Assembly: GCA_903931735.1 (NCBI GenBank)
Contig: CAIZDL010000060.1
Location: 1 to 35,178 of the forward strand
Direction: 5' to 3'
Source: an uncultured Rhodospirillales bacterium
GTDB taxonomy: Bacteria; Pseudomonadota; Alphaproteobacteria; Azospirillales; Azospirillaceae
DNA: 35,178 nt
Part shown: piece by piece, positions 14,191 through 35,084 of the stretch
Numbering within the stretch: position 1 is the stretch's first letter
How the letters are laid out: the number at the start of each line of letters is the position of its first letter
Position numbers and translations under genes: made by a program
The notes under the pieces: model-generated
Databases searched by the model: none
Told to the model about the DNA's origin: nothing
The model's input: only the letters and a program-made list of their open reading frames with translations

Positions 14191-16239
14191 ATGGATGGGC
14201 TCGCCGCCAATTTGTTCAGCCGTTACAACAGCATCATGCGGGCCACCTTTTTGGGCGTGCTGCTGATCGCGGGGGGGCTGTTTTGGGTCCAGGTCGACCA
14301 GTCCGAGCGCACGGCGCGCACCCAGTTGGAAGCCCGGCTTCGCGAGGCCGCGCTGGCGCTCAACTTTATTCTGAAAGCCAGCGCCGATAATGTCGATGAT
14401 CTTGAGGTTGAAGCCGAAGACTGGCTCCAGACCAATACCACGCCCCCCGAGCCACCAAGCGCGCTTTATACCCGGCTGACCGCGCGGGCCAGCGCCGGCC
14501 TGTTCACGCTTGACCGGGTGCCGCCGCCCTACACCACCGAATTGATCGGGAACCTTACCGCGACTGCGCGCACGCCCGACGCCGAGTTCCGGTCTGAAAT
14601 TGAAATGGCGCTGTCCCTCAATGGGCGCTTTCACGCCATTGGCAAACTATTACCCAACGCTGCCTGGGTTTATTATACCTCGGCCAGCGGCTTTATTAAC
14701 ATCTACCCGTGGACGGCATCAAAGAGCTTCAAGTACAGCCCGGCGTTGCTGGAAAAAGAGTTTTTCACCGGAGGCCTGCCCAACAACAACCCCAAGCGCA
14801 AACGATTCTGGACCGAGGCCTATGTCGATGAAGCCGGCAAAGGGCTGATGGTAACGGTTGCGACACCGATCTACCGGGGCAAAAACTTCCGGGGCACCGT
14901 TGCTATCGACCTTACCCTCGATGAATTGAACCGCTTCGTAAAAACCTGGAACGACGGCTCGGGTGAGCTGTTTGTGGTCAACGACCGCGATCAAGTGCTG
15001 GCCCACCCCCGGCTCGTCACCTCCAAGGACACCGCGATCAAGCAGCTCGCCGAGGCACTCCCGGCCGAATTTCGCACCGACGCCAAGGCCCTGATGGCCG
15101 CCGCCCACGAAAAGCTGGCCAGCCGGGGGGACTGGCTGGTGGAAGCGCTGCCGCTGGAGCAAGCCCCGTTCCGGCTGGTGATGGTGGTCCATCACGGCTC
15201 GTTGGTGCTGGAGATTCTGGCTGGCGCCGGGCTGACCGTGCTCGCGCTGTTGCTGGGGCTGGGGCTGACGCTGATTCTCTCCTCGCGGCTGACCCTCGCC
15301 GGTTTTATCACGCCATCCCAAAAACTGGTGGACTACATCGCCCACAAGCTGCGCGACGAGAACACCGCGATTCCCCAGGTGCCTGAAGCGTGGACACCGT
15401 GGTTCAAAACCATCGCCGACGTGTTTGCCGATCACAATAAGCTGGCCGCGATCCAGAACGAACTCGATATCGCGCGCACCATGCAACAAAGCATTCTGCC
15501 CCGCCGCTTTCCGAGCGAACCCGAAGTCCAACTCCACGCCCGCATGTTGCCGGCCAAGGATGTTGGCGGGGATTTCTACGACTTCTTCTGGTTGGCGCCC
15601 GGCCTGCTTGGGGTGGTGGTTGCCGATGTTTCGGGCAAGGGGGTGCCGGCGGCGTTGTTCATGGCGGTCGCCCGCACGCTGATCCGCGCCACCGCCACCA
15701 CCTCCGACGGGCCGGGGGCGTGCTTCCGGCTGGTCAACACCCTGCTGGCAGAAGATAACGACACCGCGATGTTCGTTACCGTGTTCTACGGCGTGCTCGA
15801 TACCGCGAGCGGCGAAATGATGTACGCCAATGCAGGCCATTGCCCGCCCTGCGTGGTCAGCCCCGAGGGCACGGTCTCAACCCTGCCCGGCACCGGCGGC
15901 ATGGCCCTCGGCGTAATCGAGGACATGAATTTTGTCGAGGCCACGGTGGTTCTCCAACCCGGTTGCAAGCTGCTGTTCTACACCGATGGCGTGACCGAAG
16001 CCTTCGATCCCGCCCTTACCGAGTTCACCGAAGCGCGGCTGCGCCAAACACTGGCCGGCACCAATACCATTCCGGTCGCGGCCTTCGTCGATGGCGTCGT
16101 TGCGGCGGTGGAGAGCTTTGCCGCCGGCGCGCCCCAAGCCGACGACCTGACCTGCCTCGCCCTCCATTTTGGCCCGCCGCCTCCCACGACCGCGGCCGGG
16201 GCCGCCGCCGGGGCCGCCATGACCGCTGGGGAGGTCTAA
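14191..16239 (+). CDS. Membrane sensor phosphatase: Cache-like sensor plus PP2C (SpoIIE/RsbU) domain
   Basis: The 682-residue protein has a membrane segment at about 16-34 and a large extracytoplasmic sensor to about 336, of Cache/PDC type judged from PIYRGKNFRGTVAIDLTLDEL. A second membrane segment follows at about 337-364, then a HAMP-like linker and a PP2C phosphatase domain from about 425. Phosphatase motifs are QQSILPRRFP, AKDVGGDFYDFF (about 459-464 for GGDFYD), VADVSGKGVPAALFM, NAGHCPP, LFYTDGVTEAFDP and ADDLTCLALHF, so the metal-binding aspartates are present. SpoIIE/RsbU enzymes dephosphorylate STAS antagonists, and a STAS gene lies two genes on. The frame begins earlier, but ATG 14191 fits the first membrane helix. 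The C-terminal tail is a run of Ala and Gly. Confidence 0.92.
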   Translation: MDGLAANLFSRYNSIMRATFLGVLLIAGGLFWVQVDQSERTARTQLEARLREAALALNFILKASADNVDDLEVEAEDWLQTNTTPPEPPSALYTRLTARASAGLFTLDRVPPPYTTELIGNLTATARTPDAEFRSEIEMALSLNGRFHAIGKLLPNAAWVYYTSASGFINIYPWTASKSFKYSPALLEKEFFTGGLPNNNPKRKRFWTEAYVDEAGKGLMVTVATPIYRGKNFRGTVAIDLTLDELNRFVKTWNDGSGELFVVNDRDQVLAHPRLVTSKDTAIKQLAEALPAEFRTDAKALMAAAHEKLASRGDWLVEALPLEQAPFRLVMVVHHGSLVLEILAGAGLTVLALLLGLGLTLILSSRLTLAGFITPSQKLVDYIAHKLRDENTAIPQVPEAWTPWFKTIADVFADHNKLAAIQNELDIARTMQQSILPRRFPSEPEVQLHARMLPAKDVGGDFYDFFWLAPGLLGVVVADVSGKGVPAALFMAVARTLIRATATTSDGPGACFRLVNTLLAEDNDTAMFVTVFYGVLDTASGEMMYANAGHCPPCVVSPEGTVSTLPGTGGMALGVIEDMNFVEATVVLQPGCKLLFYTDGVTEAFDPALTEFTEARLRQTLAGTNTIPVAAFVDGVVAAVESFAAGAPQADDLTCLALHFGPPPPTTAAGAAAGAAMTAGEV

Positions 16240-16240
16240 T

Positions 16241-16678
16241 GTGACCAACGCGCTCGATATCCGGCTGGAGAACCGGCTCCCTGAAATTCATCGGCTGGCG
16301 ACCCTCGTGGAGGCGTTTGGCGCAACCCACGACATTCCCGCCCGAACGATCTTCAATCTCAATCTCGCCCTCGACGAGGTGCTGACCAATATCATCGACT
16401 ATGCCTATCCCGATAACGCGACCCACGAGATTTTGGTCCGCCTGACCCTGGCCGAGGCCACGCTCCGGGCCGAGGTGGTCGACGATGGCCCGCCCTACGA
16501 TCCGACCCGGCAGCCCGACCCCGACACCTCGCTTGCGGTGGAAGACCGCCCAATCGGCGGGCTGGGGATTTATTTTGCCAAACGCATGATGGACCGACTC
16601 GAGTACTATCGCCACGAAGGCGCCAACCACCTGACCATGGTGCGGCTGATGACCCAGGATACCGTCCCCGAAACCTGA
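16241..16678 (+). CDS. RsbW-like anti-sigma/anti-sigma-regulator serine kinase
   Basis: The 145-residue protein is a small GHKL-type ATPase of the HATPase_c_2 group (RsbW/SpoIIAB). The N-box is LNLALDEVLTNIIDYAY, the G1 box is VVDDGPPYDP and the G2 box is GGLGIYFAKRMMDR, in the usual order. Such kinases phosphorylate a STAS protein and in many cases hold a sigma factor or another target inactive. It begins at GTG 16241, one base after the phosphatase stop, with GGGGAGG just upstream inside the phosphatase gene, so the two are likely translationally coupled. The STAS partner is the next gene. No sigma factor is adjacent, so its target is not known. Confidence 0.93.
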   Translation: MTNALDIRLENRLPEIHRLATLVEAFGATHDIPARTIFNLNLALDEVLTNIIDYAYPDNATHEILVRLTLAEATLRAEVVDDGPPYDPTRQPDPDTSLAVEDRPIGGLGIYFAKRMMDRLEYYRHEGANHLTMVRLMTQDTVPET

Positions 16679-16730
16679 GCGATGCCCCCGCACCCAACGG
16701 CCCCTCTTTTCAACAGGATATCGACCAACC

Positions 16731-17081
16731 ATGGAAACCAGTCAGACTCATGCCGAGGGGGTGGTGATCATCAACGCCCAGGGACGCATCGACAGCAACA
16801 CCGCCAAAGCCTTTGAAGACAGGCTGCTCGGAGCAATCGCGACCACCGACCCTCGGATGGTGGTCGATTGCTCACAACTCGATTATGTCAGCAGCGCCGG
16901 CCTGCGGGTGCTCCTGATGGCGGCCAAGAGGGTCAAGGCCGCCAAGGGGATGCTGGCGCTGGCGGGGCTAAAGCCCCACGTCCAGGAAGTATTTGACGTG
17001 AGCGGCTTCTCCAGTATCTTCTCGATCCAGGCCGGGCGCGACGCCGCCGTTGCCGCGGTCTCCCGCGCCCCCGGTTTTTAA
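16731..17081 (+). CDS. STAS-domain anti-anti-sigma factor (SpoIIAA/RsbV-like)
   Basis: This 116-residue protein is a single STAS domain. The phosphorylation-site loop is DYVSSAGLRVLLMAAKR, where the second serine is the usual target of the RsbW kinase. It follows the strand VVIINAQGRIDSNTAKAFE, which has the conserved G-R-I-D-S. In partner switching the unphosphorylated STAS protein binds the kinase and frees its target; the PP2C protein two genes upstream would restore it. ACAGGAT lies upstream of the ATG at 16731. The gap of 52 bases from the kinase gene and 45 to the next gene fits one operon. Confidence 0.94.
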   Translation: METSQTHAEGVVIINAQGRIDSNTAKAFEDRLLGAIATTDPRMVVDCSQLDYVSSAGLRVLLMAAKRVKAAKGMLALAGLKPHVQEVFDVSGFSSIFSIQAGRDAAVAAVSRAPGF

Positions 17082-17126: not shown

Positions 17127-17732
17127 ATGGTCGAAGCCGCCGACATTCCCGATACGCTTGAAGGTCTTGAAGAGTCCTCCGCCGATAGCCGCACCCGGCA
17201 ATGGGTTGCGATTTTCATTTCGGCACTTGCGGTGGTGCTGGCCATCACCAGCATGGGCGGCGGCAACGCCACCAAAGACATGATGCACGCCAGCATCGTC
17301 GTCAACGACACCTACGCCTTCTATCAGGCCAAAAATATCCGCCAAAACGAGATGCGGTTGGCCGCCGATCAGCTCAAAGCCCTGAAAGCCGCCACCCCGC
17401 AACTCGCCCCCGAAACCAGCGCTTGGATCGACGAGCGGGTGAAAACTTATCTCGCAACCGCCGACAAATATGAGTCCGAGCCCAAAACCGGCGATGGCAA
17501 AAGAGAACTGCTGGCCAAAGCCCGGGAATATGAGGCCGTTCGCGATCACGCCGGCGAGCAGGACCCGTTCTTTGATTATGCCGAGGCGCTGATCCAGATC
17601 GCCATCGTGCTCGCATCGGCCAGCTTGGTGGGCGGACGGCGCTGGGTGCTGTATCTGGCCTATTTCTTTGCCGGCATCGGCGTGCTGCTGACCCTCAACT
17701 CCTTTCTCCTGGTGTTCACACTGCCAAACTGA
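17127..17732 (+). CDS. DUF4337 family membrane protein
   Basis: The 201-residue protein has one membrane segment near the N terminus (about 28-46, VAIFISALAVVLAITSM) and two near the C terminus (about 150-167 and 172-197). The central helical part between them contains the DUF4337 hallmarks GGGNATKDMMHASI and DTYAFYQAKNIRQNEMRLA. The function of this family is not known. It is probably the fourth gene of the phosphatase-kinase-STAS operon, so it could be an effector or membrane partner of that pathway, but position is the only evidence. Its stop TGA (17730-17732) lies inside the first unit of a 15-base repeat tract, and its last 73 bases are also coding on the other strand. Confidence 0.88.
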   Translation: MVEAADIPDTLEGLEESSADSRTRQWVAIFISALAVVLAITSMGGGNATKDMMHASIVVNDTYAFYQAKNIRQNEMRLAADQLKALKAATPQLAPETSAWIDERVKTYLATADKYESEPKTGDGKRELLAKAREYEAVRDHAGEQDPFFDYAEALIQIAIVLASASLVGGRRWVLYLAYFFAGIGVLLTLNSFLLVFTLPN

Positions 17733-22105: not shown

Positions 22106-22453
22106 CTATTTCACGGCTTTACGGTTTTTGGCGTAGGTCCCCAGCATCTTCTCGATTTCCGGCGCGAGGATGCTGAACGACCCGGCAAACTGCCGGTTGG
22201 CGTTGACCGACGTGATGGTAACGCGCGTGTTGAAGCTGAACTTGCCGCACCGGTCATCAACCGCCACCGTGATCGAGGCCAACTGGCCCTGAGCAATCGA
22301 GGCGTCATGATTGCCGGCAACGAAGCCCTTCGGAGTCAAGGTGACCAGCGGGTAGCTTCGGCTGTCGATCAAAACATTGGCACTATCGACCTTCGCTTTT
22401 GGCGCGGCTTTTTTGTCGTGAATCAGGATTTTAAGAAAATCGAACATGGCCAT
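22106..22453 (-). CDS. Small cytoplasmic protein of unknown function (115 residues)
   Basis: The product begins MAMFDFLKILIHDKKAAPKA and continues with DSANVLIDSRSYPLVTLTPK, GFVAGNHDASIAQGQLASI and TVAVDDRCGKFSFNTRVTI, ending with a helix (APEIEKMLGTYAKNRKAVK). The beta-rich middle with a GKFSF strand resembles a PilZ-type barrel, but the arginine motif R-x-x-x-R needed for cyclic di-GMP binding is not visible, so I call no family. The ATG at 22453 was chosen because homology-like compact sequence begins there and GGGGGTAA lies upstream; the frame is open 37 codons earlier through GC-rich non-coding-looking sequence. Its stop is 35 bases from the convergent anti-sigma gene. Confidence 0.72.
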   Translation of the reverse strand: MAMFDFLKILIHDKKAAPKAKVDSANVLIDSRSYPLVTLTPKGFVAGNHDASIAQGQLASITVAVDDRCGKFSFNTRVTITSVNANRQFAGSFSILAPEIEKMLGTYAKNRKAVK

Positions 22454-22655: not shown

Positions 22656-23018
22656 TCAGCCAGCACTGGCTTTGCGGTCATCCGGACGCTTCTTAGAGGC
22701 GGGCTGGTAAGCAATGGCCGCATGTTCGGCGCAATAAGGCATACTCAATTGGGCGGGACGACCACAAAAATGAAAATCCTGGTGCTTAGGATCGCCGACC
22801 GGCCATTTGCACATCCGCTCCGTCAACGCCAAAATGGTCGCGCCACGGGTCGCCTTTTTCTTGATCGGGGATGGCCTGCCGGAAAGGCCCAGTCGATGAG
22901 CCTTCCCAATCACGGCGTTGCGGCTAACATCGCCCAGCTCTTCGGCAATATCACTGGCGCTCTTACCTTGCCCCCAAAGGGTTTTGAGATGTTCAATGCG
23001 CTCGTCCGTCCAACTCAT
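22656..23018 (-). CDS. gcrA: GcrA cell cycle regulator
   Basis: The 120-residue protein begins MSWTDERIEHLKTLWGQGKS, followed by ASDIAEELGDVSRNAVIGKA and HRLGLSGRPSPIKKK, the DNA-binding helix-turn-helix domain of GcrA. The C-terminal part has CKWPVGDPKHQDFHFCGRP and MPYCAEHAAIAYQP, the sigma-70-interacting domain, which bears conserved cysteines and histidine. In Caulobacter GcrA acts with sigma-70 at promoters carrying GANTC methylated by CcrM. GGAGAGAG sits close before the ATG at 23018, and the long upstream extension on the same frame is not coding. It is a strong marker for Alphaproteobacteria. It is divergent from ilvB across 747 bases. Confidence 0.96.
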   Translation of the reverse strand: MSWTDERIEHLKTLWGQGKSASDIAEELGDVSRNAVIGKAHRLGLSGRPSPIKKKATRGATILALTERMCKWPVGDPKHQDFHFCGRPAQLSMPYCAEHAAIAYQPASKKRPDDRKASAG

Positions 23019-23180
23019 CGGCTCTCTCCAGGCTGCTATCTCGCTGACAATACGCCGTTTTTCATTCTCATTCGGCCGCACCCGGCACGCCCCGCCCGTG
23101 CTTCGTCCGCCTCGCATCCCAATAGGCCGGCGGTCCGGCCCGAACGGCAAGGTCGATCGGGGCCGGGCGGAAACGCCGGT

Positions 23181-23429: not shown

Positions 23430-23765
23430 CGACCTGCGCCAACACTAAGGGGGATGCCCCAGCGGCGCTCTGCGACAAGGTGCCTCAGCATCGCTCAAGC
23501 TTCCGAAGCCGGGCCAACCGAAGGCCCCCGGCGACACATTTGCGCGGCGCCGCCCGGGTCTTGCCGGTGTTCGCCGATTTGGTTTGACCTGACCGGAGCG
23601 CGCGTCTAGTTTGCTCTTCCCGACGCGGCGCCTGTCCGGCAGCGCTCACGGCGAAGCTGTGCGCGGCGTTGCCGTGTATAGGTTTGGCCCGTGTGCTGCG
23701 CCCGTGGGCGACGGTGGGCCGGGAGGCGCCCGGGACAGTAACGGCGAGCACGAAGGTTGGAGACC

Positions 23766-25526
23766 ATGGCCGAAGAGTTGATGACTGGAGCCCAGATCAT
23801 TATGAAGGCTCTGAAGGATCAGGGCGTTGATGTGGTTTTTGGGTATCCCGGCGGCGCTGTGCTGCCGATTTACGACGCACTGTTCCAACAGAACGACATT
23901 CGCCATATCCTGGTTCGCCATGAGCAGGGCGCGGTTCACGCCGCCGAAGGATACGCCCGCTCTACCGGCAAGGTCGGCTGCGTCCTCGTCACCTCGGGTC
24001 CTGGCGCCACCAACGCTGTTACCGGCCTCACCGACGCCTTGCTCGACAGCGTTCCCCTGGTGTGCCTGTGCGGTCAGGTGCCGACTCATTTGATTGGCAA
24101 CGACGCCTTTCAGGAGGCCGACACCACCGGCATCACCCGCTCCTGCACCAAGCACAATTACTTGGTCAAAGACGTTAACAACCTCGCACGCACCCTGCAC
24201 GAGGCGTTTTATGTCGCCCGCTCGGGACGGCCGGGGCCGGTGCTGCTGGATATCCCGAAGGACGTGCAGTTCAACGTCGGGCGGTACATCACGCCCCAAG
24301 AAGTCACCCACAAGAGCTATAAGCCCCAGGTAAAGCCCGATATCGCCCGGGTCGAAGAGGCGGTGGCGCTGTTGGCGGCGGCCAAGCGACCGATTTTTTA
24401 CGTCGGTGGCGGCGTGGTCAACTCCGGTTTGCAGGCGGCAAAACTGCTGACCCAGCTCGTCCGCATGACCGGCTATCCCTGCACGACCACGCTGATGGGT
24501 CTGGGTGCGTTTCCGGCCAGCGACCCGCAATTCCTCGGTATGCTGGGAATGCACGGCACCTATGAGGCGAACCTCGCGATGCACGGCTGCGACCTGATGG
24601 TTGCCGTTGGCGCGCGCTTCGACGATCGGGTGACCGGCAAAATTTCCGAGTTTGCCCCGGGCTCGAAGAAGATCCACATCGACATCGACCCCAGCTCGAT
24701 CAATAAAAATGTGCGGGTAGACCTCTCGGTGGTGGGAGACGCGGCAAACATCCTTGAAGACATGATCCGGCTCTGGAAGGAGCGCCAGAAGCGCCCCGAC
24801 AGCGCCGCGCTGAAAGACTGGTGGGCGCAGATCAATACTTGGCGCAAACGTGAATGTCTGCGCTATGCCAAGTCTGACACTATCATTAAGCCGCAATATG
24901 CGCTGGAGCGTCTCCGCGAGGCGATCAAGGACAAGGATCACTACATCACCACCGAAGTCGGCCAGCACCAAATGTGGGCGGCCCAGTTCCTTCCCTTCGA
25001 CGAGCCTTTCCGCTGGCTGACCTCGGGCGGCCTCGGCACCATGGGCTATGGCTTGCCTGCGTCCATCGGCGTTCAAATCGCGCATCCGAACTCGCTGGTG
25101 ATCGGCATTTCCGGCGACTCATCGGTAATGATGAACATCCAGGAAATGGCCACCGCCGTGCAATGCGGCGCCGCGATCAAGGTCTTCATCCTGAATAACG
25201 AATACATGGGCATGGTTCGCCAGTGGCAGGAACTCTTGCACGGGTCACGCTATTCTCAGAGCCAACTTCACGGCCAGCCCGATTTTGTTAAACTCGCCGA
25301 GGCTTTTGGCGCCACCGGCCTGCGCGCAACCAAAGTTTCTGAGCTTGACGAGGTTATCCGCAAAATGATCGAGACACCGGGACCGGTGATCGCCGACATT
25401 GCGGTGGACCCGACCGAAAACTGCTTCCCCATGATCCCCGGCGGCAAAGCCCACAACGACATGCTGCTCGGCCCCGGCGACAAACCCGAATCCGCAACCC
25501 CAGAAGACGGGATGGTGCTGGTGTAG
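23766..25526 (+). CDS. ilvB: Acetolactate synthase large subunit
   Basis: The 586-residue catalytic subunit condenses two pyruvates, or pyruvate and 2-oxobutyrate, in the first common step of branched-chain amino acid synthesis. The N-terminal thiamine-diphosphate motif is VFGYPGGAVLPIYDAL and the catalytic glutamate lies in RHEQGAVHAAEGYAR at about residue 53. FAD-region motifs are seen in the middle. The cofactor-binding motif GDSSVMMNIQEM to LNNEYMGM is near residues 450-485. The ATG at 23766 is the family start; a TTG nine bases upstream is possible. It lies in the order ilvB, two unknown genes, ilvH, ilvC. The usual contiguous ilvB-ilvH order is broken here. Confidence 0.97.
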   Translation: MAEELMTGAQIIMKALKDQGVDVVFGYPGGAVLPIYDALFQQNDIRHILVRHEQGAVHAAEGYARSTGKVGCVLVTSGPGATNAVTGLTDALLDSVPLVCLCGQVPTHLIGNDAFQEADTTGITRSCTKHNYLVKDVNNLARTLHEAFYVARSGRPGPVLLDIPKDVQFNVGRYITPQEVTHKSYKPQVKPDIARVEEAVALLAAAKRPIFYVGGGVVNSGLQAAKLLTQLVRMTGYPCTTTLMGLGAFPASDPQFLGMLGMHGTYEANLAMHGCDLMVAVGARFDDRVTGKISEFAPGSKKIHIDIDPSSINKNVRVDLSVVGDAANILEDMIRLWKERQKRPDSAALKDWWAQINTWRKRECLRYAKSDTIIKPQYALERLREAIKDKDHYITTEVGQHQMWAAQFLPFDEPFRWLTSGGLGTMGYGLPASIGVQIAHPNSLVIGISGDSSVMMNIQEMATAVQCGAAIKVFILNNEYMGMVRQWQELLHGSRYSQSQLHGQPDFVKLAEAFGATGLRATKVSELDEVIRKMIETPGPVIADIAVDPTENCFPMIPGGKAHNDMLLGPGDKPESATPEDGMVLV

Positions 25527-25538
25527 GGTTAGGAACCG

Positions 25539-26024
25539 ATGTGGGACTGGGTAGGGAAAGCCGCCGATATCGCCTCGCTGGCTTCCCTGCTTGTTTCGGG
25601 GTATGCTGCTTGGCAGATTACGGCTGTTCGACGCAAAGTGAGCCGGCAGATCTTGTTTAATGTCCAGGCGCCTGAATTGGTGACTTTGGTGGTCGAGACA
25701 GCGAACTGGCTGTCGGGGAATTATGCCGGTGGCGCGGCTGTTGAGCAGGAGCTTCTCGTAAAAGTTGGTATCTGCCTTGGTCGCATCGCCCATCACGAGG
25801 CGGAACTATCAGGAGATATTCGAAAGCGTTTGAAGCTGTTAAATAGTATGTTTGGGGAATACAAGTGTCCCAAACGGTGGGTTATTCATAAGACGCAGAG
25901 CGAAACTGCTTCCGATCGCCGATTGAGGGTTATGGGGGACATGATTACCGAGTTCCAGGTTTTGGCGGGTGTTCTACCAGATATGATCGAAGCCCGGAGT
26001 ATCGGAGGGTCCGATGACGCCTGA
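25539..26024 (+). CDS. Membrane-anchored protein of unknown function inside the ilv operon (gene 1 of 2)
   Basis: The 161-residue product starts MWDWVGKAADIASLASLLVS and has one membrane segment at about residues 8-28, followed by a positive RRKVSRQ, so the bulk should face the cytoplasm. The remainder is mainly helical, with LVTLVVETANWLSGNY, EQELLVKVGICLGRIAHHEA, IRKRLKLLNSMFG and a second half including MGDMITEFQVLAGVLPDMIE. I do not recognise a family. Similar short anchor-plus-helical proteins occur in bacterial accessory loci, but that is a loose impression. AGGAA lies just before the ATG at 25539, 12 bases after the ilvB stop. Base composition is visibly lower in GC than ilvB. It overlaps gene 2 by 11 bases, which points to translational coupling and a joint function. 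Confidence 0.82.
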   Translation: MWDWVGKAADIASLASLLVSGYAAWQITAVRRKVSRQILFNVQAPELVTLVVETANWLSGNYAGGAAVEQELLVKVGICLGRIAHHEAELSGDIRKRLKLLNSMFGEYKCPKRWVIHKTQSETASDRRLRVMGDMITEFQVLAGVLPDMIEARSIGGSDDA

Positions 26025-26388
26025 ACTTGAGAGAAATATTCGCTTTGTCGGGAAGCTCTTAAAGCAAACAATGCTCGGCGTCATGAAATGGCGACGGACC
26101 GAAGATGCTTACGAGACTGAAACCGGCGGGATGGGGTTGCGTCTTTATATAAGACGCCCAGATACAATGTCACGCGCCTCAAGGCTGTATAAGAAATGCG
26201 GTAGCGAAGAAACTGTTCTGGAAATACGCGATCCGACGACGGATGACACCACAACCTTTAAGTACTCCGAGCTATTTAAAGGCATGGTAATCGTGCGCGA
26301 TCTTTACAATGTAGTCCGACAAAATACTTCGAGCGTAGACAGAAAGATTGATGCCTTTCTCAGAGAAGACGTGACCCATGCCCAATGA
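26014..26388 (+). CDS. Cytoplasmic protein of unknown function inside the ilv operon (gene 2 of 2)
   Basis: The 124-residue product begins MTPELERNIRFVGKLLKQTM and has no signal or membrane segment. The middle reads RLYIRRPDTMSRASRLYKKC, then GSEETVLEIRDPTTDDTTTF and KYSELFKGMVIVRDLYNVVR, a mixed strand and helix pattern, and the end is a charged helix (DRKIDAFLREDVTHAQ). No family was recognised. GGAGGG five bases before the ATG at 26014 is one of the better ribosome binding sites in the window, and the start lies inside gene 1. Its last 11 bases overlap the ilvH start. Sample lines of this gene hold 28 G or C per 60 bases, against about 45 per 60 in ilvC, which suggests later acquisition. 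An accessory role (for example defence or a toxin-antitoxin pair) is only a guess. Confidence 0.8.
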   Translation: MTPELERNIRFVGKLLKQTMLGVMKWRRTEDAYETETGGMGLRLYIRRPDTMSRASRLYKKCGSEETVLEIRDPTTDDTTTFKYSELFKGMVIVRDLYNVVRQNTSSVDRKIDAFLREDVTHAQ

Positions 26389-26896
26389 TCTGATGGATAA
26401 AATTGAAAAGCACACCATCGCGGTGCTGGTCGATAACGAGCCCGGCGTTCTTGCGCGGGTGATTGGTCTGTTTTCGGGACGGGGCTATAATATCGAGAGC
26501 CTCACCGTTTCGGAAATCGACAAGGAAAACAACCTGTCGCGAATTACTGTCGTGACATCGGGCACCCCCATGATCATTGAGCAGATCAAGGCTCAGCTCG
26601 ATCGGTTGGTGCCGGTTCACCGTGTCCGCGACTTGTCCGACGATGGGCCGAGCGTCGAGCGCGAGTTGGCGCTGGTCAAGGTCTCCGGCGCGGGGGACAT
26701 GCGCACCGAATCAATGCGCATCGCCGGCATCTATAATGCGCGGGTGGTCGACACGACCCTCACCTCTTTTATCTTTGAGCTGACCGGCACCGCCGACGAG
26801 CTTTCAGACTTCATCAGCCTTATGAGCAAACTTGGTATGGTCGAGGTCAGTTGTACTGGCGTCGTCGCCATGTCCCGTGGCCCCAACGGCTTCTAG
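26378..26896 (+). CDS. ilvH: Acetolactate synthase small (regulatory) subunit
   Basis: The 172-residue protein is the regulatory subunit that activates IlvB and carries valine feedback inhibition. The N-terminal ACT domain is visible as KHTIAVLVDNEPGVLARVIG and LFSGRGYNIESLTVSEID. The C-terminal part has ELALVKVSGAGDMRTESMRI and ends EVSCTGVVAMSRG. Length and motifs are normal. The ATG at 26378 starts inside the end of the unknown gene 2, with only a weak AGAGAAG upstream, so ilvH translation probably depends on ribosomes coming from that gene. An ATG at 26393 (MDKIEKH) is an alternative start. Thus loss of the inserted pair could affect ilvH expression. Confidence 0.96.
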   Translation: MPNDLMDKIEKHTIAVLVDNEPGVLARVIGLFSGRGYNIESLTVSEIDKENNLSRITVVTSGTPMIIEQIKAQLDRLVPVHRVRDLSDDGPSVERELALVKVSGAGDMRTESMRIAGIYNARVVDTTLTSFIFELTGTADELSDFISLMSKLGMVEVSCTGVVAMSRGPNGF

Positions 26897-27964
<1,068 letters not shown>

Positions 27965-28039: not shown

Positions 28040-29056
28040 ATGTCGATCGCTTTCTTTCGGTATCTCACTCTGATCGTTGCTGCGGCAACGCTATCGTCTC
28101 CGGGTTTGGCCCTGGCCCGATCGGACACCGCTGAAGGAGGCGAGGCGGCCTCCCCGCTCGCCAACTGGCGGGTTGGCCCGGTGGTGGGCAAAGACGGCGA
28201 CTTTGCCTATTGCATTGCCGAGAGCCGGTTTGACAACGGTCATTCGCTGGTGATCGCCCGCAGCCGCCAAGGTGAACTCAACATCGGGCTCGGGCTCCCC
28301 TCCGCGCACCTGCCCAAGGGCGCCGCTTGGCCGGTATCGGTGGTGGTGGATGATAGCTTCAGCCGCGACCGGCAGGCGGTGGCAGCCGACCCCGACATGC
28401 TGGTGATTGCCAATGGAAACGATACCGCGTTGTTCGAGGCGCTTGCCCATGGCAGCACCCTCGCCATTCGTGGCCCAAAGGATACCCTCACCTTTCGGTT
28501 GACCAACACCAACAAGGCGCTACCGGATCTTAAGGCATGCGTCGATCAAGCCCGCGCCGGCAGGGCGGCAACGCCTTTGGGTAGCATCACCGCCTCATCC
28601 TTGCAACTACCGCCCCTCCTGAAGCAGCTTTTGGCGGAGGCCGGCTTCAAAAAAATCGGCTTGAAGGCGGCAACGACAGCGCCTCGGGGGTTGGGGCCGG
28701 CGGATTATGTTTGGACCGTTAACGGCGTCACCGCAGGCATGGCCGAATCCCGCAACGGGCGGAGCCAGGGCCTAACCAACCTTTCGGACACCGCGATTGA
28801 ACGCCTGCGCGACCGCTGCGCCCGCACCTTCCGGGTCACAGAAGGCGCTTCGGTCAATCTTCCCGGCGGCACCATCCGGGTGGCCGACGCTGAATGCGTG
28901 GAGAGTGCCGGCGCCCCAACCTACATCGCTTTTTTGTTTGAGTTGGGCCGCGCCGGCACCTTTCGGTCATTCTTTTTCGAGGCCGCCACCAGCGCCGCCG
29001 CCGCCCGCGACCGCGATGCCGTGGCAGGAGTGTTGAAGCAACTGGAAAGCCATTAG
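28040..29056 (+). CDS. Exported protein of unknown function (338 residues)
   Basis: The protein begins with a signal peptide (MSIAFFRYLTLIVAAATLSS, then PGLALARS with likely cleavage after LALA). The mature part has two similar-sized halves. The first contains GPVVGKDGDFAYCIAESRFD, SRQGELNIGLGLPSAHL and VSVVVDDSFSRDRQAVAADP, a pattern like the invasion-associated locus B fold, and ends near LPDLKACVDQARAG. The second half (from about 190) has KQLLAEAGFKKIGLKA and GPADYVWTVNGVTAGMAESR, with Cys in DRCARTF and DAECVES. I do not claim a family beyond a loose resemblance to IalB. GAGG lies six bases before the ATG at 28040. It follows the ilvC terminator and is convergent with the histidine kinase gene. 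Confidence 0.8.
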   Translation: MSIAFFRYLTLIVAAATLSSPGLALARSDTAEGGEAASPLANWRVGPVVGKDGDFAYCIAESRFDNGHSLVIARSRQGELNIGLGLPSAHLPKGAAWPVSVVVDDSFSRDRQAVAADPDMLVIANGNDTALFEALAHGSTLAIRGPKDTLTFRLTNTNKALPDLKACVDQARAGRAATPLGSITASSLQLPPLLKQLLAEAGFKKIGLKAATTAPRGLGPADYVWTVNGVTAGMAESRNGRSQGLTNLSDTAIERLRDRCARTFRVTEGASVNLPGGTIRVADAECVESAGAPTYIAFLFELGRAGTFRSFFFEAATSAAAARDRDAVAGVLKQLESH

Positions 29057-29097
29057 TGGGGTAAGCCCCGACAAAACTTTCAAATTGCCTTCGGCGA

Positions 29098-29118
29098 CCA
29101 AAGGCCGGGGGCCTTTGG
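29098..29118. terminator. Hairpin between convergent genes
   Basis: CCAAAGGCC (29098-29106) pairs perfectly with GGCCTTTGG (29110-29118) around a three-base loop, in the 120-base gap between the convergent exported-protein and histidine kinase genes. There is no T run, so it may act as a two-way transcript end or only as an RNA-stabilising stem. Confidence 0.5.
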
Positions 29119-29176
29119 AAACCCGGACTTTTACTGCGCACTCTAACTGATGAGACCGCTCTAAAGCCGGCGCCGG

Positions 29177-32100
29177 TTACACGTCGCGCGCGACCGCCTC
29201 GGTGACGCGAGCAAAGGCGGCGTGGACCTTAGGCAACAACGGGCGGGCGCCCTCGATGCCGGCCTCGACCACCACAGCCTCCAGGGCGCTGGCCACCGCC
29301 GCCAACTCCCCCGCGCCCGCCGTACGGGCAGCTCCAGCAATCGAGTGGGCGGCAAACCGCACGTCGTCAAGAGCGCCAGCTTCAAGGTACTGAACCAATT
29401 CAGTCACGGTCAAAAGAGTGGTTTCAAGAAAATACCCCATCATCGACCGCGCCTGCTCGGAATCGCCGAACAACTCGATCACGAACGCCACATCCAAGAC
29501 CACCTCATCTGGCGACGGGGCCGAGGAAGCCGCCGGAGCGCAAACGGCGGCGGCAATCGCCACAACCGGGGCCGAAGCCGGTTGGCCCTGGTCGGCTCCC
29601 GGTTTGCGCAGATCGAGCGCCGTTGGCAACCACCGCGCCACCATTGCCTCCAGCGCCGCCAGCGTCACCGGCTTTGTCAAATAATCGTCCATGCCGGCGG
29701 CAAAGCATTTGGCCGCCTCCCCCGAGAGGGCTGCGGCGGTTAGGGCCACAATCGGCAGATGCCCGCCCGCGAGCACCTCTCCTGCACGAACCCGCCGGGT
29801 GAGAGCGTACCCATCGAGCCGGGGCATAAAACAATCGGAGACCAGCAAACCATACCCGGCACATTGAAGCGCCTCCCACGCCGCCTCGCCGTCATCCACC
29901 AAATCGGCGGCAAACCCAAGGCGCAAAAACTGCTGCCGGATCACAATTTGGTTGGTCGGGTTGTCCTCGGCGATCAAGATCAGCGCGTTGGCCGCCTGGG
30001 CTTCCTCCCGGCTCGGCGGCACCAGGGTGACCGCCACGGCCTGGGCCGGGCCATGATGCTCGGGCGGCAACCGACCGGCGGCCCGCGCCACCGCCCGCTC
30101 CAAAACCTCGCGTCGAACCGGCTTGAACAAAACCTCGGCAATCCCCAACCCCTCGGCCGCGGCGGTAAGGCCAACGTCGTCAAGATGCGTGGTGACCACC
30201 ACCCCCAACCCGCGCCCGGCGGGAAGGCCACGCGCCGAGGCCACCAGCTCCAGCCCGTCAAGCCGGCCGGGGTCGAAGTCAACCACCAGCACCGAGAAGG
30301 GCCGCCCGGCGCCCTCGGCCTCCGTCAGCGCCTCCAGCCCGGCGCCGGTATCGAGCCCGGTCACCACCCGCGCCCCGGCCCCGCTCAAAATCGCATCGAA
30401 GGCCCGGCAGGCGGCCACAGCATCGTCGATCACCAACACGTCGAGGCCCGACAGATCCGGCCTCGCCAGCACGGGCAGCGCCGCCACGGCCTCATCGATG
30501 CCCAGCGGCACCTCAAACCAAAATGTCGAGCCGTAACCAACCGCGCCGCGCGCGCCGATGGTGCCGCCCATCAACTCAACCAGCCGCCGACAGATCGACA
30601 GGCCCAGCCCACTGCCGCCAAACCTACGGGTGGTCGAGGCATCGGCCTGGGAGAACGGCTCGAACAGCTTGGCCTGCAACGCCTCGGGCAGGCCGATACC
30701 GCTATCGACCACCTCAAAACGCACCGTCTCCGGGGCATCGGCCGCCTCACGGGGCATCGCCGAAACCATCACGGCGACGTAGCCATGCTCGGTAAATTTG
30801 AGCGCGTTGCCGACGAGGTTCAACAAAATTTGGCGCAACCGGACCGGATCGCCCAACCGGCCATCGGCCAGCGCCGGGTCCACGTCGATGATCAGATCGA
30901 GGCGCTGCTCCCGCGCCCGGGTCGAGAGCAAGTCGGCCACCCCCTCGACCACCGCCCGCAGCGACATCGGCACGCTTTCGATATCCAGCCGCCCGGCCTC
31001 AATTTTGGAAAAATCCAGAATGTCGTTGATAATGGTCAACAGCGCCGTCGCCGACTCGCGAATCACCGCGACGAATTTTCGTTGTTCGGCCTCCAGCGGG
31101 GTGCGTTCCAACACCTCCAACATGCCGAGCACGCCGTTCATCGGGGTGCGGATCTCGTGGCTCATGGTCGCGAGGAAGGTCGACTTGGACTTCACCGCCT
31201 CTTCCGCCAGCTCCTTGGCCTTCAGCAAGGTTTCTTCGGCGACCTTGCGCTCGGTGATATCGGTACAGGTGAACAGAAACCCGCCCTCGCGCCGACTATT
31301 GCCGCGAAACTCCAGATACCGGCCATTACCGAGCTTGGTCTCCCCCACCAGGGGCAGACCAGCAGAAATATAAGTGCCGATTTCATAAGTAAGCTGCTCA
31401 GCCGAGCGCCAGCCCAAATCTCCCCGCTCGGCCGAAAGGCGGATCAGGGCGCCAAGATAAGGCTTGGTGGCCATCAGGCTATCGGGGTAATCCCAAAGCT
31501 GACGATAGCGCTCATTGCAGATCACAACGCGAAATTCATCGTCAAACAAGCAGATCCCGTTGGGCATAGAGGAAAAAGCCGCCTGAAGCTGAAGGGATGC
31601 TTCCGCAACCTCCGCCTCGGCGCGCACCCGCTCGCTGATATCGACCACCGTGACCTGCATCGCCGGCTCGCCCATCCAATCGATGACCCGCTCGATCACC
31701 TCGCACCAAACCGGTGTGCCATCGCGGCGCAAGCGGGTGATGCGACGCAACCCCTGCTCCTGTTCGCCCGCCATCATCAGGAAGTAGCTGCGCCACGCCC
31801 GCGGGGCCTCCTCCAGCGTCATCAAGCATTCGAGGCTGGAAAGGGCCAACAGATCGACTGCGCGATCAAATCCGAAAATGCGCGCATAGGCTTCGTTCAC
31901 GAATAATGGCACAAAATTGCGATGGATCAGCACGCCCTGAATTGAGCCTTCGATCAAGCCCCGGAATCGTGCCTCGCTCCCCTTGAGTTCATTTTCCCGC
32001 TGCCGCAGCTCAGAGATAAAAAACTCGACCGACGCCCCCATTTCGGCGATTTCGTCGGTGCCGGTGGGCAAGATCACCTCCCGACCGGCCACCAATGCGC

Positions 32101-32680
32101 GCAGACCATCGCGCAATTCATCGAGCCTGCGCCCAACGGTGCGACGAATGTTGAAGCCCACCACGAGCACGCCAATCGCGCCCACCACCGCCAGCCCCAT
32201 CACGAGCCGACCATGCACCTTCGCTGCTTCATCCACCGCTTTGGTGTCGGCGACCAGCACGGCGTGGGCGACCTTGATCCGCTGATCGAGAGCGCGGGCG
32301 AACCGCGACGCCGCCGCGTGGACCTCCTCGTGAAACTCGCCGTCGCTGCTGGCCCGAAGCAAACCGGCCGCCGCCGAGTCGAGCAGAATGCAGCCGCCAA
32401 CAACCTCCCCCGGCGGGCATAACGCCGCAATCAGGGCGGCAAAGCGCTGTCGGTCGGCACCGCTGCCCATTGATACATCGCCCACCGCCAAAGCAACGGA
32501 AAGGCGCCCAACCTCGGCCGCGGTCTCCAATACCTGCAAATGGACAGCGCTCAGATTGACGACATTCCGAAATGAGCGACTGGACAGTGATGACGCCACG
32601 CCAATCGCCAGGGACACGACCGCCAGCACCACCAAGCCAATGGTCAACCGGGTCGTGATGCCGACCCCGACCTTCTTCAT
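29177..32680 (-). CDS. Hybrid sensor histidine kinase with two receiver domains and an HPt domain
   Basis: The 1167-residue protein has a membrane segment at about 10-30, a periplasmic sensor to about 155, a second segment at 158-178, a HAMP domain (about 180-235), PAS (235-355) and a second PAS (about 365-480). The kinase core follows, with phospho-acceptor His508 in [14 protein letters not shown]-box GNALKF at 624-629, G1 box DSGIG and G2 box GGSGLGLS (688-695). The first receiver has Asp801 ([11 protein letters not shown]) with the usual M-P replaced by P-G; the second is canonical (Asp949 in [12 protein letters not shown], Lys1003). The HPt domain bears His1112 in [16 protein letters not shown] 32680 gives a normal first membrane helix. 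No response regulator gene is nearby, so its output is unknown. Confidence 0.95.
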
Positions 32681-32926
32681 TCTGGAGCCCCCTCGAAATG
32701 CCCAAAGACCCACGGTCACCTTTTTACCGCATACTAAGGGATCGGCGTCGGGAACCAAAGCGCCGCCGCCGCTAATTATCGCCAAACCGCGTGACCCATG
32801 CTAGGTATGCCCGGCGAGGCTCCCGCTGGACGCCCCCAACCGGTGGAATGATCCAATTTCAGGGTGCATCGGACGGTCTGCTACGAAAGACGGATAAACA
32901 GTCAAAATTCAAAACGAGGCTGCATC

Positions 32927-33151
32927 ATGATCAACGCCGTGGAACGGGCCTTCGACATTGCCCGGGCAGAACAGGTCGCCAAGAATCATTACCTCGACGT
33001 TGCCTGGAAATTTGCGCGCGAGGCGATCGGCACCAAAGGGCCGTACGAACCCACAACCACGCTTGGGGACCTCAAGCAGGCACGGGAAACCTTTGAAGAA
33101 CTCGCAAAAGCGAGCCTGCTCGCCGACCGCAATCAGCGCGAACACGAATAG
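32927..33151 (+). CDS. Small protein of unknown function (74 residues)
   Basis: The product begins MINAVERAFDIARAEQVAKN and continues HYLDVAWKFAREAIGTKGPY, then LGDLKQARETFEELAKASLL and a charged tail. It is predicted to be mostly helical, without signal peptide or membrane segment. I do not recognise a family. GAGG lies seven bases before the ATG at 32927 and a clear terminator follows at once, so it looks like a complete single-gene unit. The frame is open 21 codons upstream, without a ribosome binding site. It is divergent from the histidine kinase, with about 245 bases between. Confidence 0.7.
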   Translation: MINAVERAFDIARAEQVAKNHYLDVAWKFAREAIGTKGPYEPTTTLGDLKQARETFEELAKASLLADRNQREHE

Positions 33152-33152
33152 C

Positions 33153-33177
33153 CGGTAGCCCACTACCGCGCTTTTTT
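33153..33177 (+). terminator. Intrinsic terminator after the small protein gene
   Basis: CGGTAG (33153-33158), a CCCA loop and CTACCG (33163-33168) form a perfect stem, followed by CGC and six T residues to 33177. The stem starts two bases after the stop codon. Confidence 0.8.
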
Positions 33178-33293
33178 AGCAGTTCTGCCCCGCCTTCCCC
33201 GCCCGGTCGAGTCCCTTGCTCACGGGCCGGGGAGAGGCTTAGCTGCGCCTGCCGATTCTTACATTTGCTCTTCACACGAGGCATCGCCGCGTT

Positions 33294-35084
33294 ATGACCT
33301 ATTCCGCCCCCATCACCGATATGCGGTTTGTCCTCAACCGGGTGATCGGATTCGACCGCATCGCCGGGCTGCCCGGCTACGAGGATGCCACGCCCGATCT
33401 GGTTGACAGCGTTCTCGAAGAGGCCGGCAAGTTTGCGGCCGAAGTGCTGGCGCCCATCAACGCCACCGGCGACCGCGAGGGCTCCAAGCTGGAAAACGGC
33501 GTCGTCCACCAGCCGGAATGCTTTCGGGCCGCGTATAAGCGCTATGTCGAGGCGGGATGGAACGGCGTGCCCTTCGAGCCCGAATATGGCGGCCAGGGCT
33601 TGCCCTGGGCGCTGGCGTTCGCGGTTCAGGAAATGTGGCAATCGGCCAACATGGCCTTCGGCTTGTGCCCCATGCTCAACCAGGGGGCCGTGGAGCTGTT
33701 GAGCGAGCACGGCAGCCCGGACCAAAAGGAAATGTTCCTCGCCAAATTGATCTCGGGCGAGTGGACCGGCACGATGGACCTGACCGAACCCTCGGCCGGC
33801 TCCGACCTTGGCGCCGTGCGCACCAAAGCTGTTCCCGATGGCGATGTTTACCGCATCTCCGGCACCAAAATTTTTATCACCTACGGCGAGCACGATCAGG
33901 CCGAAAACATTATTCATTTGGTTTTGGCGCGGCTGCCGGGCGCACCGGCCGGGTCGAAAGGCATTGCGCTGTTCATCGCCCCCAAGTTCCTGGTCAACCC
34001 CGACGGCTCGCTTGGCGCCCGCAACGATCTGCTCTGCACCGGGATCGAGCACAAGCTGGGCATCAACGCCAGCCCAACCGCCGTGTTGAGCTATGGCGAT
34101 AACGGGGGGGCCATTGGCTATCTGGTCGGCGAGCCGGGCCGGGGCCTTGAATACATGTTTTCCATGATGAACAACGCCCGGCAATCGGTGGGGCTCCAGG
34201 GGCTCGCGATCGCCGAGCGCGCCTATCAACAAGCCCGCGACTATGCCAAAACCCGGATTCAGGGCAAGGACCTGCGCAGCCCGCGCGGCCCCTCGGTGGC
34301 GATCATCAACCACCCCGACGTTCGGCGCATGTTGCTGACCATGAAGTCGCAGACCGAGGCGGCGCGGATCCTGTGCTATGAGGCCGGCGCCGCCCGCGAT
34401 ATCGCCAAGCGCCACCCCGACAGCGAGGCCCGCGCCGCAGCCCAGCTTCGCATTGAGCTGCTAACCCCGGTGGTTAAATCGTGGGTCACCGATTTGGGCT
34501 GTGAAATCGCCTCGCTTGGGGTGCAAGTCCATGGCGGCATGGGCTTCATTGAAGAGACCGGCGCCGCCCAACACCTGCGCGACGCCCGCATCGCCCCGAT
34601 CTATGAAGGCACCAACGGGATTCAGGCAGCCGACTTGGTGTTCCGCAAGCTGGGCCGCGATCAGGGCGCAGCGGCCCTCGCCTTTATCGCCGAAATGAAG
34701 ACGGTGGCCGCCCACGCCGCCGGCCATCCGGGCGACGACCTCAAAACCATTTCAGACGCGCTTTACGCCGGCACCATCGTGCTGGAACAAGCCACCCTCT
34801 GGATGGTCGAGACCTTGAAGCCCGATGCCGTGGCCGCCGCCGCCGGTGCCGCCAATTATCTGCGCATGTTCGGCTTGGTCACAGGCGGCGCCATGCTCGC
34901 ACGGGCCGCCAGCGCCGCCAGCGACGATCTTCGGCAGCGGGGGGCCGACGTGGACTTTCTAACCGGCAAAATCATCACCGCCCGCTTTTACGCCGAACAA
35001 ATCCTGCCTCAGGCCGCCGGCCTGCTGGTGCCCATCACCCAAGGAGCGGGCACGGTGATGGCACTCACCGACGATCAATTTTAA
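33294..35084 (+). CDS. Acyl-CoA dehydrogenase with C-terminal extension (DmdC-like family)
   Basis: The 596-residue flavoenzyme belongs to the long acyl-CoA dehydrogenases that carry an extra C-terminal domain. Members include 3-methylmercaptopropionyl-CoA dehydrogenase (DmdC) and fatty acyl-CoA dehydrogenases, and the substrate cannot be decided here. The N-terminal part has GLPGYEDATPDLVDSVLEEA; FAD-binding motifs are TMDLTEPSAGSDLGAVRTKA and KIFITYGEHD. The catalytic glutamate is in IAPIYEGTNGIQAADLV, and the region QVHGGMGFIEETGAAQHLRD is typical. The C-terminal domain runs from about 470 to 596. No other gene for an acyl-CoA pathway is nearby. Its stop TAA (35082-35084) lies inside the first unit of a 15-base tandem array. 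Confidence 0.94.
   Translation: MTYSAPITDMRFVLNRVIGFDRIAGLPGYEDATPDLVDSVLEEAGKFAAEVLAPINATGDREGSKLENGVVHQPECFRAAYKRYVEAGWNGVPFEPEYGGQGLPWALAFAVQEMWQSANMAFGLCPMLNQGAVELLSEHGSPDQKEMFLAKLISGEWTGTMDLTEPSAGSDLGAVRTKAVPDGDVYRISGTKIFITYGEHDQAENIIHLVLARLPGAPAGSKGIALFIAPKFLVNPDGSLGARNDLLCTGIEHKLGINASPTAVLSYGDNGGAIGYLVGEPGRGLEYMFSMMNNARQSVGLQGLAIAERAYQQARDYAKTRIQGKDLRSPRGPSVAIINHPDVRRMLLTMKSQTEAARILCYEAGAARDIAKRHPDSEARAAAQLRIELLTPVVKSWVTDLGCEIASLGVQVHGGMGFIEETGAAQHLRDARIAPIYEGTNGIQAADLVFRKLGRDQGAAALAFIAEMKTVAAHAAGHPGDDLKTISDALYAGTIVLEQATLWMVETLKPDAVAAAAGAANYLRMFGLVTGGAMLARAASAASDDLRQRGADVDFLTGKIITARFYAEQILPQAAGLLVPITQGAGTVMALTDDQF

Follow-up and report, generated by a model that had tools for sequence, protein, structure and literature searches.

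Two genes between the subunit genes of acetolactate synthase

In the 35,178 bp of DNA analysed here (the window), two extra genes lie between ilvB and ilvH, which encode the large and small subunits of acetolactate synthase. The explanation that we favour, and hold to be rather probable, is that they are a laterally acquired accessory pair at the level of the genus, whose products probably make up one complex and would be co-expressed with acetolactate synthase without belonging to the enzyme.

The order on the plus strand is ilvB, 12 bp, gene 1, gene 2, ilvH and ilvC. The ilvB gene (23766–25526; Pfam TPP_enzyme N, M and C) starts at the ATG at 23766, its mechanical ORF opening at a TTG at 23757. 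It is followed by gene 1 (25539–26024, 161 aa), gene 2 (26014–26388, 124 aa), ilvH (26378–26896; Pfam ALS_ss_C and ACT) and ilvC (26945–27964), which we take from sequence and position to encode ketol-acid reductoisomerase. The ilvB–ilvH spacer thus measures 851 bp and holds both extra genes. Genes 1 and 2 overlap by 11 bp (26014–26024), and gene 2 and ilvH by another 11 bp, from the ilvH start at 26378 to the end of gene 2 at 26388. The spacing reported in the first-pass annotation, 12 bases and two 11-base overlaps, is therefore exact (25526/25539, 26014–26024 and 26378–26388). The same annotation credited the genes with excellent ribosome-binding sites. Read directly, the sequence offers the Shine-Dalgarno-like AGGA at 25531–25534 for gene 1 and a strong GGAGGG at 26004–26009, within the end of gene 1, for gene 2 (GGAGGA at the matching position in a second species, G002), but upstream of the ilvH start only the purine-rich AGAGAAGA could serve. 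Because the ribosome site of gene 2 falls within the end of gene 1, and the ilvH start within the end of gene 2, translation is probably chained.

According to PMC10666635, genes for subunits of the same complex are over-represented among those with short overlaps. The present pair resembles the heteromeric-complex gene pairs described there in being co-directional with a short stop/start overlap. It differs in that both genes have their own ribosome-binding sites and in that the 11-bp overlap lies just outside the overlap class of that source, which spans −8 to +10.

We compared five genomes of the genus: that of the window (G000), G001, G002, G003 and G004. The divergent upstream neighbour of ilvB, the cell-cycle regulator gene gcrA (22656–23033, minus strand; Pfam GcrA, 1.2e-43), has orthologues adjoining ilvB in G002, G001 and G004, in which ilvC is orthologous too, and marks the locus as orthologous in all four readable genomes. 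The site is unreadable in G003, where the close ilvB match is 69 residues near a contig end and ilvH was not found. Both genes are present in G000 and G002, with spacers of 851 and 888 bp and overlaps of 11 bp at both junctions. As the pair in G002 is about half different in protein sequence and yet keeps both frames, both overlaps and the position, the observation is more than chance, and we reject an assembly artefact because this second genome has the identical arrangement.

Distribution of the pair

Among 194 relatives, intact gene 1 was found in two, G000 and G002, and gene 2 gave matches in five, of which we accepted those in G000, G002 and G001. The remaining two were judged to be chance: that in G008 lies within a 337-aa ORF resembling, by eye, a GGDEF protein, and that in G181 is interrupted by a stop codon, with a 477-aa ORF running across it on the opposite strand. 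A gene 1 alignment scan of an 84,980-species genome collection, which uses two near-exact short peptides and so sees close relatives only, returned a single locus, CAIOBP010000224.1, which is G002 (recorded as 'uncultured Rhodospirillales bacterium isolate VK3_bin-0780'). In 398 genomes of the phylum the gene 1 profile gave, beyond the window's own, four matches at E 0.013–0.032, which we took as chance; the three inspected (L069, L070 and L071, with L068 remaining) lie in or against other long ORFs. The gene 2 profile yielded, beyond the window's own, weak matches in the phylum genomes that were likewise taken as chance. A match in G331 has two stops, and a second match in the window's own genome has three and runs across other ORFs; both were rejected. 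The order-level search covered 82 genomes, the same 82 as the family search. There a whole-genome search with a gene 1 profile derived solely from the G000 and G002 sequences matched these two and also, at E = 0.02, G004 within the ilvB–ilvH spacer; it gave no match in G001. The gene 2 alignment used at this level already contained G001 and G004, where matches consequently arise by construction. The distribution rests on genomes of 97,973 of 199,900 species, metagenomes lying outside its scope.

The ilvB–ilvH gap was also measured in family genomes of other genera, 26 at loci from the searches and 15 on fetched stretches (two further stretches repeat genomes already measured). In all 41 it amounts to 15–190 bp, which leaves no room for the pair. 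The family has 77 genomes outside the genus, of which these cover 41, or 42 with G014, and all 12 other genera are represented. A class search found IlvH in 134 of 190 genomes, and our survey took the 89 best-scoring of these other than the window's own, leaving out 44 weaker-scoring ones. At all 87 measurable loci (two of the 89 could not be measured) the pair is absent and the gap lies between −10 and 315 bp; in the single gap above 250 bp no reading frame exceeds 71 codons. Of the 87 loci, two belong to family members and the other 85 to alphaproteobacteria outside the family. Since the gaps measured elsewhere run from −10 to 315 bp without the pair, ilvB–ilvH adjacency is the rule and the genus the exception. 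The earlier claim that the two genes are normally contiguous is thereby confirmed in 42 family genomes of other genera and in 85 other alphaproteobacteria. The locus shares gene order and strand with the ilvB(I)-ilvH(N)-ilvC operon of Alphaproteobacteria, and departs from it by two extra genes and a spacer of 851 bp. By eye, the non-coding ilvB–ilvH spacers of 139–184 bp at L043, L048 and L055 (G012, G028 and G078) resemble repeats or palindromes.

ORFan genes inserted into operons are lineage-restricted, lack known relatives and lie co-directionally in a conserved operon. Genes 1 and 2 are like them in each of these respects. In the genomes searched their homologues are confined to a narrow lineage, they are absent at the site in the relatives measured, and their frames are under selection. 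Unlike such insertions, they come as two genes, the downstream junction of each being an 11-bp overlap; a second species has kept this pair, and two others have a shorter form.

Base composition and rates of evolution

The lower GC of the pair, already remarked upon in the first-pass annotation, is borne out: 0.534 for gene 1 and 0.476 for gene 2, against 0.602 for ilvB, 0.572 for ilvH and 0.611 for ilvC. GC3 is 0.58 and 0.51 for genes 1 and 2 in the window and 0.60 and 0.43 in G002, with 0.74–0.88 for ilvB and ilvH. The window values are the two lowest among its gene-like ORFs, a 90-aa ORF (17201–17473; GC3 0.42) having been set aside as non-coding from its codon-position pattern. The ilvB–ilvH spacers of other genera have a GC of 0.57–0.79 in 16 of 17 stretches and of 0.49 in one. 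Low GC3 that has persisted since at least the age of the genus could instead mean weak codon selection. As for the annotation's proposal of an acquired module, the pair is indeed inserted, low in GC and tightly coupled; in the genomes searched it was found nowhere outside the ilv site of the genus, so that travel as a module is a conjecture. Horizontal arrival rests on composition and absence, since neither a donor nor a second genomic location was found.

Between G000 and G002 gene 1 is 49–53% identical and gene 2 43–50%, depending on the aligner, and IlvB and IlvH are 90% and 87% identical. The pN/pS values, which are rough because synonymous divergence is near saturation, are 0.49 (bootstrap 0.37–0.64) for gene 1, 0.55 (0.41–0.72) for gene 2, 0.10 for ilvB and 0.14 for ilvH. 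On these values genes 1 and 2, taken as whole genes, are under purifying selection. Indeed, because both intervals lie below 1 and overlaps and order are kept, we consider the genes to be real and their frames to be kept by selection. They are nonetheless the fastest of the 12 genes compared with G002, with pN of 0.29 (gene 1) and 0.37 (gene 2) versus 0.03–0.20 in ten neighbouring orthologues, and a pS near the highest of the set. Gene 1 is 81% identical over residues 12–58 and 32% over residues 59–131. In gene 2, identity is 64% and 76% at the two ends and 18% in the centre (49–87), with a pN/pS of about 1.07 for this poorly aligning part and of 0.22–0.27 for the four conserved stretches of the pair, segment limits having been chosen after viewing the alignment.

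Family searches, predicted structures and a possible defence function

Searches of Pfam, NCBIfam, PADLOC (PADLOC-DB 2.0.0) and PHROGs returned no family at E ≤ 10 for either protein of the window, and hence no known defence family and no known toxin or antitoxin profile. The G002 versions gave Pfam matches only at E 0.037–0.13, below the cut-off and none of them toxin–antitoxin. Neither protein has an ACT or ALS_ss domain in Pfam, both of which IlvH has. Sequence searches of the PDB gave nothing significant (best E 1.4 and 0.19), nor did tblastn against plasmids and phages (best E 0.4–2; phages without G002 gene 2) or scans of viral contigs. Several weak matches were discarded: one in Azospirillum lies within an ORF resembling, by eye, a response regulator, one in Paracoccus lies inside an annotated LysR gene, and one to a Pseudoalteromonas phage (E 0.4) and one over 29 residues (E 9.7) were judged to be chance. 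We also considered gene 2 as a possible member of a widespread type of small protein (helix, Lys-Trp strand, C-terminal helix); a consensus for this type gave nothing useful in Pfam or plasmids, and we do not claim such a membership. The phrase 'between ilvB' was absent among the matches listed in a literature search. On the window, Rfam gave no match, a terminator scan found 2 against 5.3 expected, and a promoter scan with no power to detect found 2 against 1.8 expected.

AlphaFold models, each built on a two-sequence alignment, are all-helical for gene 1 (pLDDT 72.7) and show a helix, four strands and two helices for gene 2 (pLDDT 77.5). Against the PDB, the gene 1 model gave a best Foldseek E of 4.8e-3 (a FAT domain) and a best VIA Z of 11.8 (rmsd 4.0, 113 aligned), corresponding to generic helical bundles. 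The gene 2 model found weak matches, with a best Foldseek E of 0.43 and a VIA Z of 5.0 (rmsd 2.3, 60 aligned) in the PDB, and an uncharacterised phage protein in BFVD (E 6.6e-3). The structure search proposed in the first-pass annotation thus returned generic or weak matches for both proteins. Its description of gene 1 as membrane-anchored is only partly upheld: RRK directly follows the hydrophobic segment in both versions of the protein, but the best 19-residue Kyte-Doolittle mean is 1.28 in the window and 1.42 in G002, below the usual cut-off of 1.6 for a membrane segment. As this N-terminal segment (about 11–29) is moderately hydrophobic, membrane attachment of gene 1 is possible.

These features bear on the idea that the two genes are an anti-phage defence or toxin–antitoxin pair, in which a membrane-associated gene 1 effector is held or triggered by gene 2 and the operon provides steady expression. 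Two-gene toxin–antitoxin and membrane-effector defence modules are like the pair in size, coupling, low GC and fast divergence. A variable centre in a constant framework, apparent loss in two species, and the combination of one helical, possibly membrane, protein with a small soluble one point in the same direction. On the other hand, the pair differs from such modules in that it has no PADLOC, PHROGs or Pfam match, no mobile context that we could find and one known location, no second locus having been found; nor did plasmids, phages or viral contigs yield a significant match. The scan of the neighbourhood covered ten other ORFs of the window, against Pfam. We regard a defence or toxin–antitoxin function as conceivable, though somewhat unlikely.

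Apparently shortened forms of the pair in two species

G001 and G004 have shorter spacers, of 379 and 324 bp. The start of the G004 spacer resembles the first ~28 codons of gene 1, and its end is about 80 codons in the frame of gene 2; the G001 spacer ends in the same way and is more decayed at its beginning. In shuffle tests, none of 5000 shuffles reached the score of the G004 peptide, picked by eye, against the N-terminus of gene 1 in either full protein. The G001 frame resembles the C-terminal half of gene 2 with p ≤ 2e-4 (G000) and 0.012 (G002), and the G004 stretch with p of 0.015 and 0.15, the last 8 residues being excluded in each case. A single-sequence gene 2 search gave no match in G004. 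The homology of the putative remnants appears uneven between the two genomes. Their spacer looks like the start of gene 1 joined to the last ~80 codons of gene 2 by an old deletion, and the simplest reading would be a single deletion that predates the split between G001 and G004. IlvB and IlvH of these two are 96–98% identical (IlvB of G004 over 493 codons), and it is from IlvB/IlvH identity, not from a tree, that the kinship of G001 with G004 and of G000 with G002 is read. In both species the pair seems to be eroding. A recent acquisition is rejected, because the pair or its likely remnant is present in every one of the four genomes in which the site can be read.

The remnants speak for a near-neutral passenger, that is, a pair of little or no function, kept because its 3′ end supplies the ribosome-binding region of ilvH, with an inner part that can be deleted freely. 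Besides the roughly 80 codons in the gene 2 frame, G001 and G004 have kept an almost identical ilvH start region: the last stretch of gene 2 (26362–26388), which encodes ..EDVTHAQ and in which ilvH has its start and ribosome-binding region, is nearly identical across the alignment of all four readable genomes. The remnant stretch has a pN/pS of 0.64 (0.42–0.97), compared with 0.03–0.04 in ilvB and ilvH, and by substitutions alone its frame could stay open by chance with P of about 0.12–0.22. We consequently dropped the open frame as proof of function and do not claim a working remnant protein. However, G000 and G002 have diverged for long and both still have intact genes, whose pN/pS is clearly below 1 and some segments of which are strongly conserved. 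A passenger would not be expected to keep these features, and we lean against this explanation about as much as against a defence pair.

The same two species tell against a factor that regulates or assembles acetolactate synthase and is made together with both subunits. Its location between the subunit genes and the overlap with ilvH would suit such a role. Yet the pair is absent at the site in 42 family genomes of other genera and in 85 alphaproteobacteria outside the family, is apparently broken in G001 and G004, which both retain intact IlvB and IlvH (96–98% identical between the two), and changes at several times the rate of its supposed binding partner, the enzyme. It is thus not kept beside the enzyme in relatives as a regulatory subunit would be, being shortened in G001 and G004 and absent in other genera. 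A regulator that the enzyme needs would hardly be lost in related species or diverge so fast, and we consider this role improbable. Still less credible is birth of the pair in place from non-coding spacer DNA: no credible homologue was found outside the genus among the collections searched, which are incomplete, but the joint birth of two overlapping genes with a GC below that of other genera's spacers is itself improbable.

A proposed model for the origin and fate of the pair

For the acquired accessory pair that we favour, the following course can be proposed. A two-gene cassette of foreign, lower-GC origin would have entered the ilvB–ilvH spacer in the ancestor of the genus. It would most simply be transcribed with ilvBHC, no promoter of its own having been seen in the low-power scan. 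The 11-bp overlaps would chain the reading frames, with the result that both proteins are synthesised jointly, alongside IlvH. We infer that they form one complex, in which the helical gene 1 product may act as a scaffold, possibly bound to the inner membrane, and the gene 2 product would be a small alpha/beta partner contacting it through its terminal helices, which are conserved. The centre of gene 2, being variable, may face a changing target outside the operon, as a conflict or sensing module would. The cassette would be dispensable, two species having apparently lost its middle and kept the 3′ end that carries the ilvH translation start region. Since the last codons of gene 2 hold the ilvH initiation region, clean excision is expected to harm ilvH, and this would explain the internal loss in G001 and G004.

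A bolder form of this model is that the pair is an undescribed two-protein conflict or sensing system residing in an essential biosynthetic operon, always expressed and not cleanly deletable because it supplies the ilvH translation start; we offer it as a speculation that is unlikely to hold in full. Equally speculative is the corresponding picture of the proteins, a helical and possibly membrane-bound scaffold with a small alpha/beta partner whose central sheet diversifies within a constant framework.

The locus offers a worked case of apparently foreign genes fixed in a core biosynthetic operon. The genes would first have been inserted and become chained in translation to the gene that follows; they would then have diverged rapidly and later been eroded, except for the piece needed by the host. 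If the pair is a defence or sensing module, it would represent a new family and would show that core operons can shelter such modules.

Other features of the window

Adjoining gcrA, a 115-aa ORF on the minus strand (22106–22453) without a Pfam match at E ≤ 0.001 diverges quickly, being 79% identical in G002 and 47% and 43% in G001 and G004. Gene order changes 3′ of ilvC (28040–35084), where four window genes were tested against relatives: none has a match in the G002 contig (13 kb past ilvC) or the G004 contig, and the sole match in the G001 stretch is a 25% identical part of a kinase gene. The 338-aa ORF directly 3′ of ilvC (28040–29056, plus strand) has a start that looks by eye like a signal peptide, no Pfam match at E ≤ 0.001, and no match in the fetched stretches of relatives. 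Finally, genes for a Cache-SpoIIE phosphatase, a HATPase_c_2 kinase and a STAS protein follow one another at 14194–17081 on the plus strand, in the same order in G002, and look like what we presume to be a partner-switching module.
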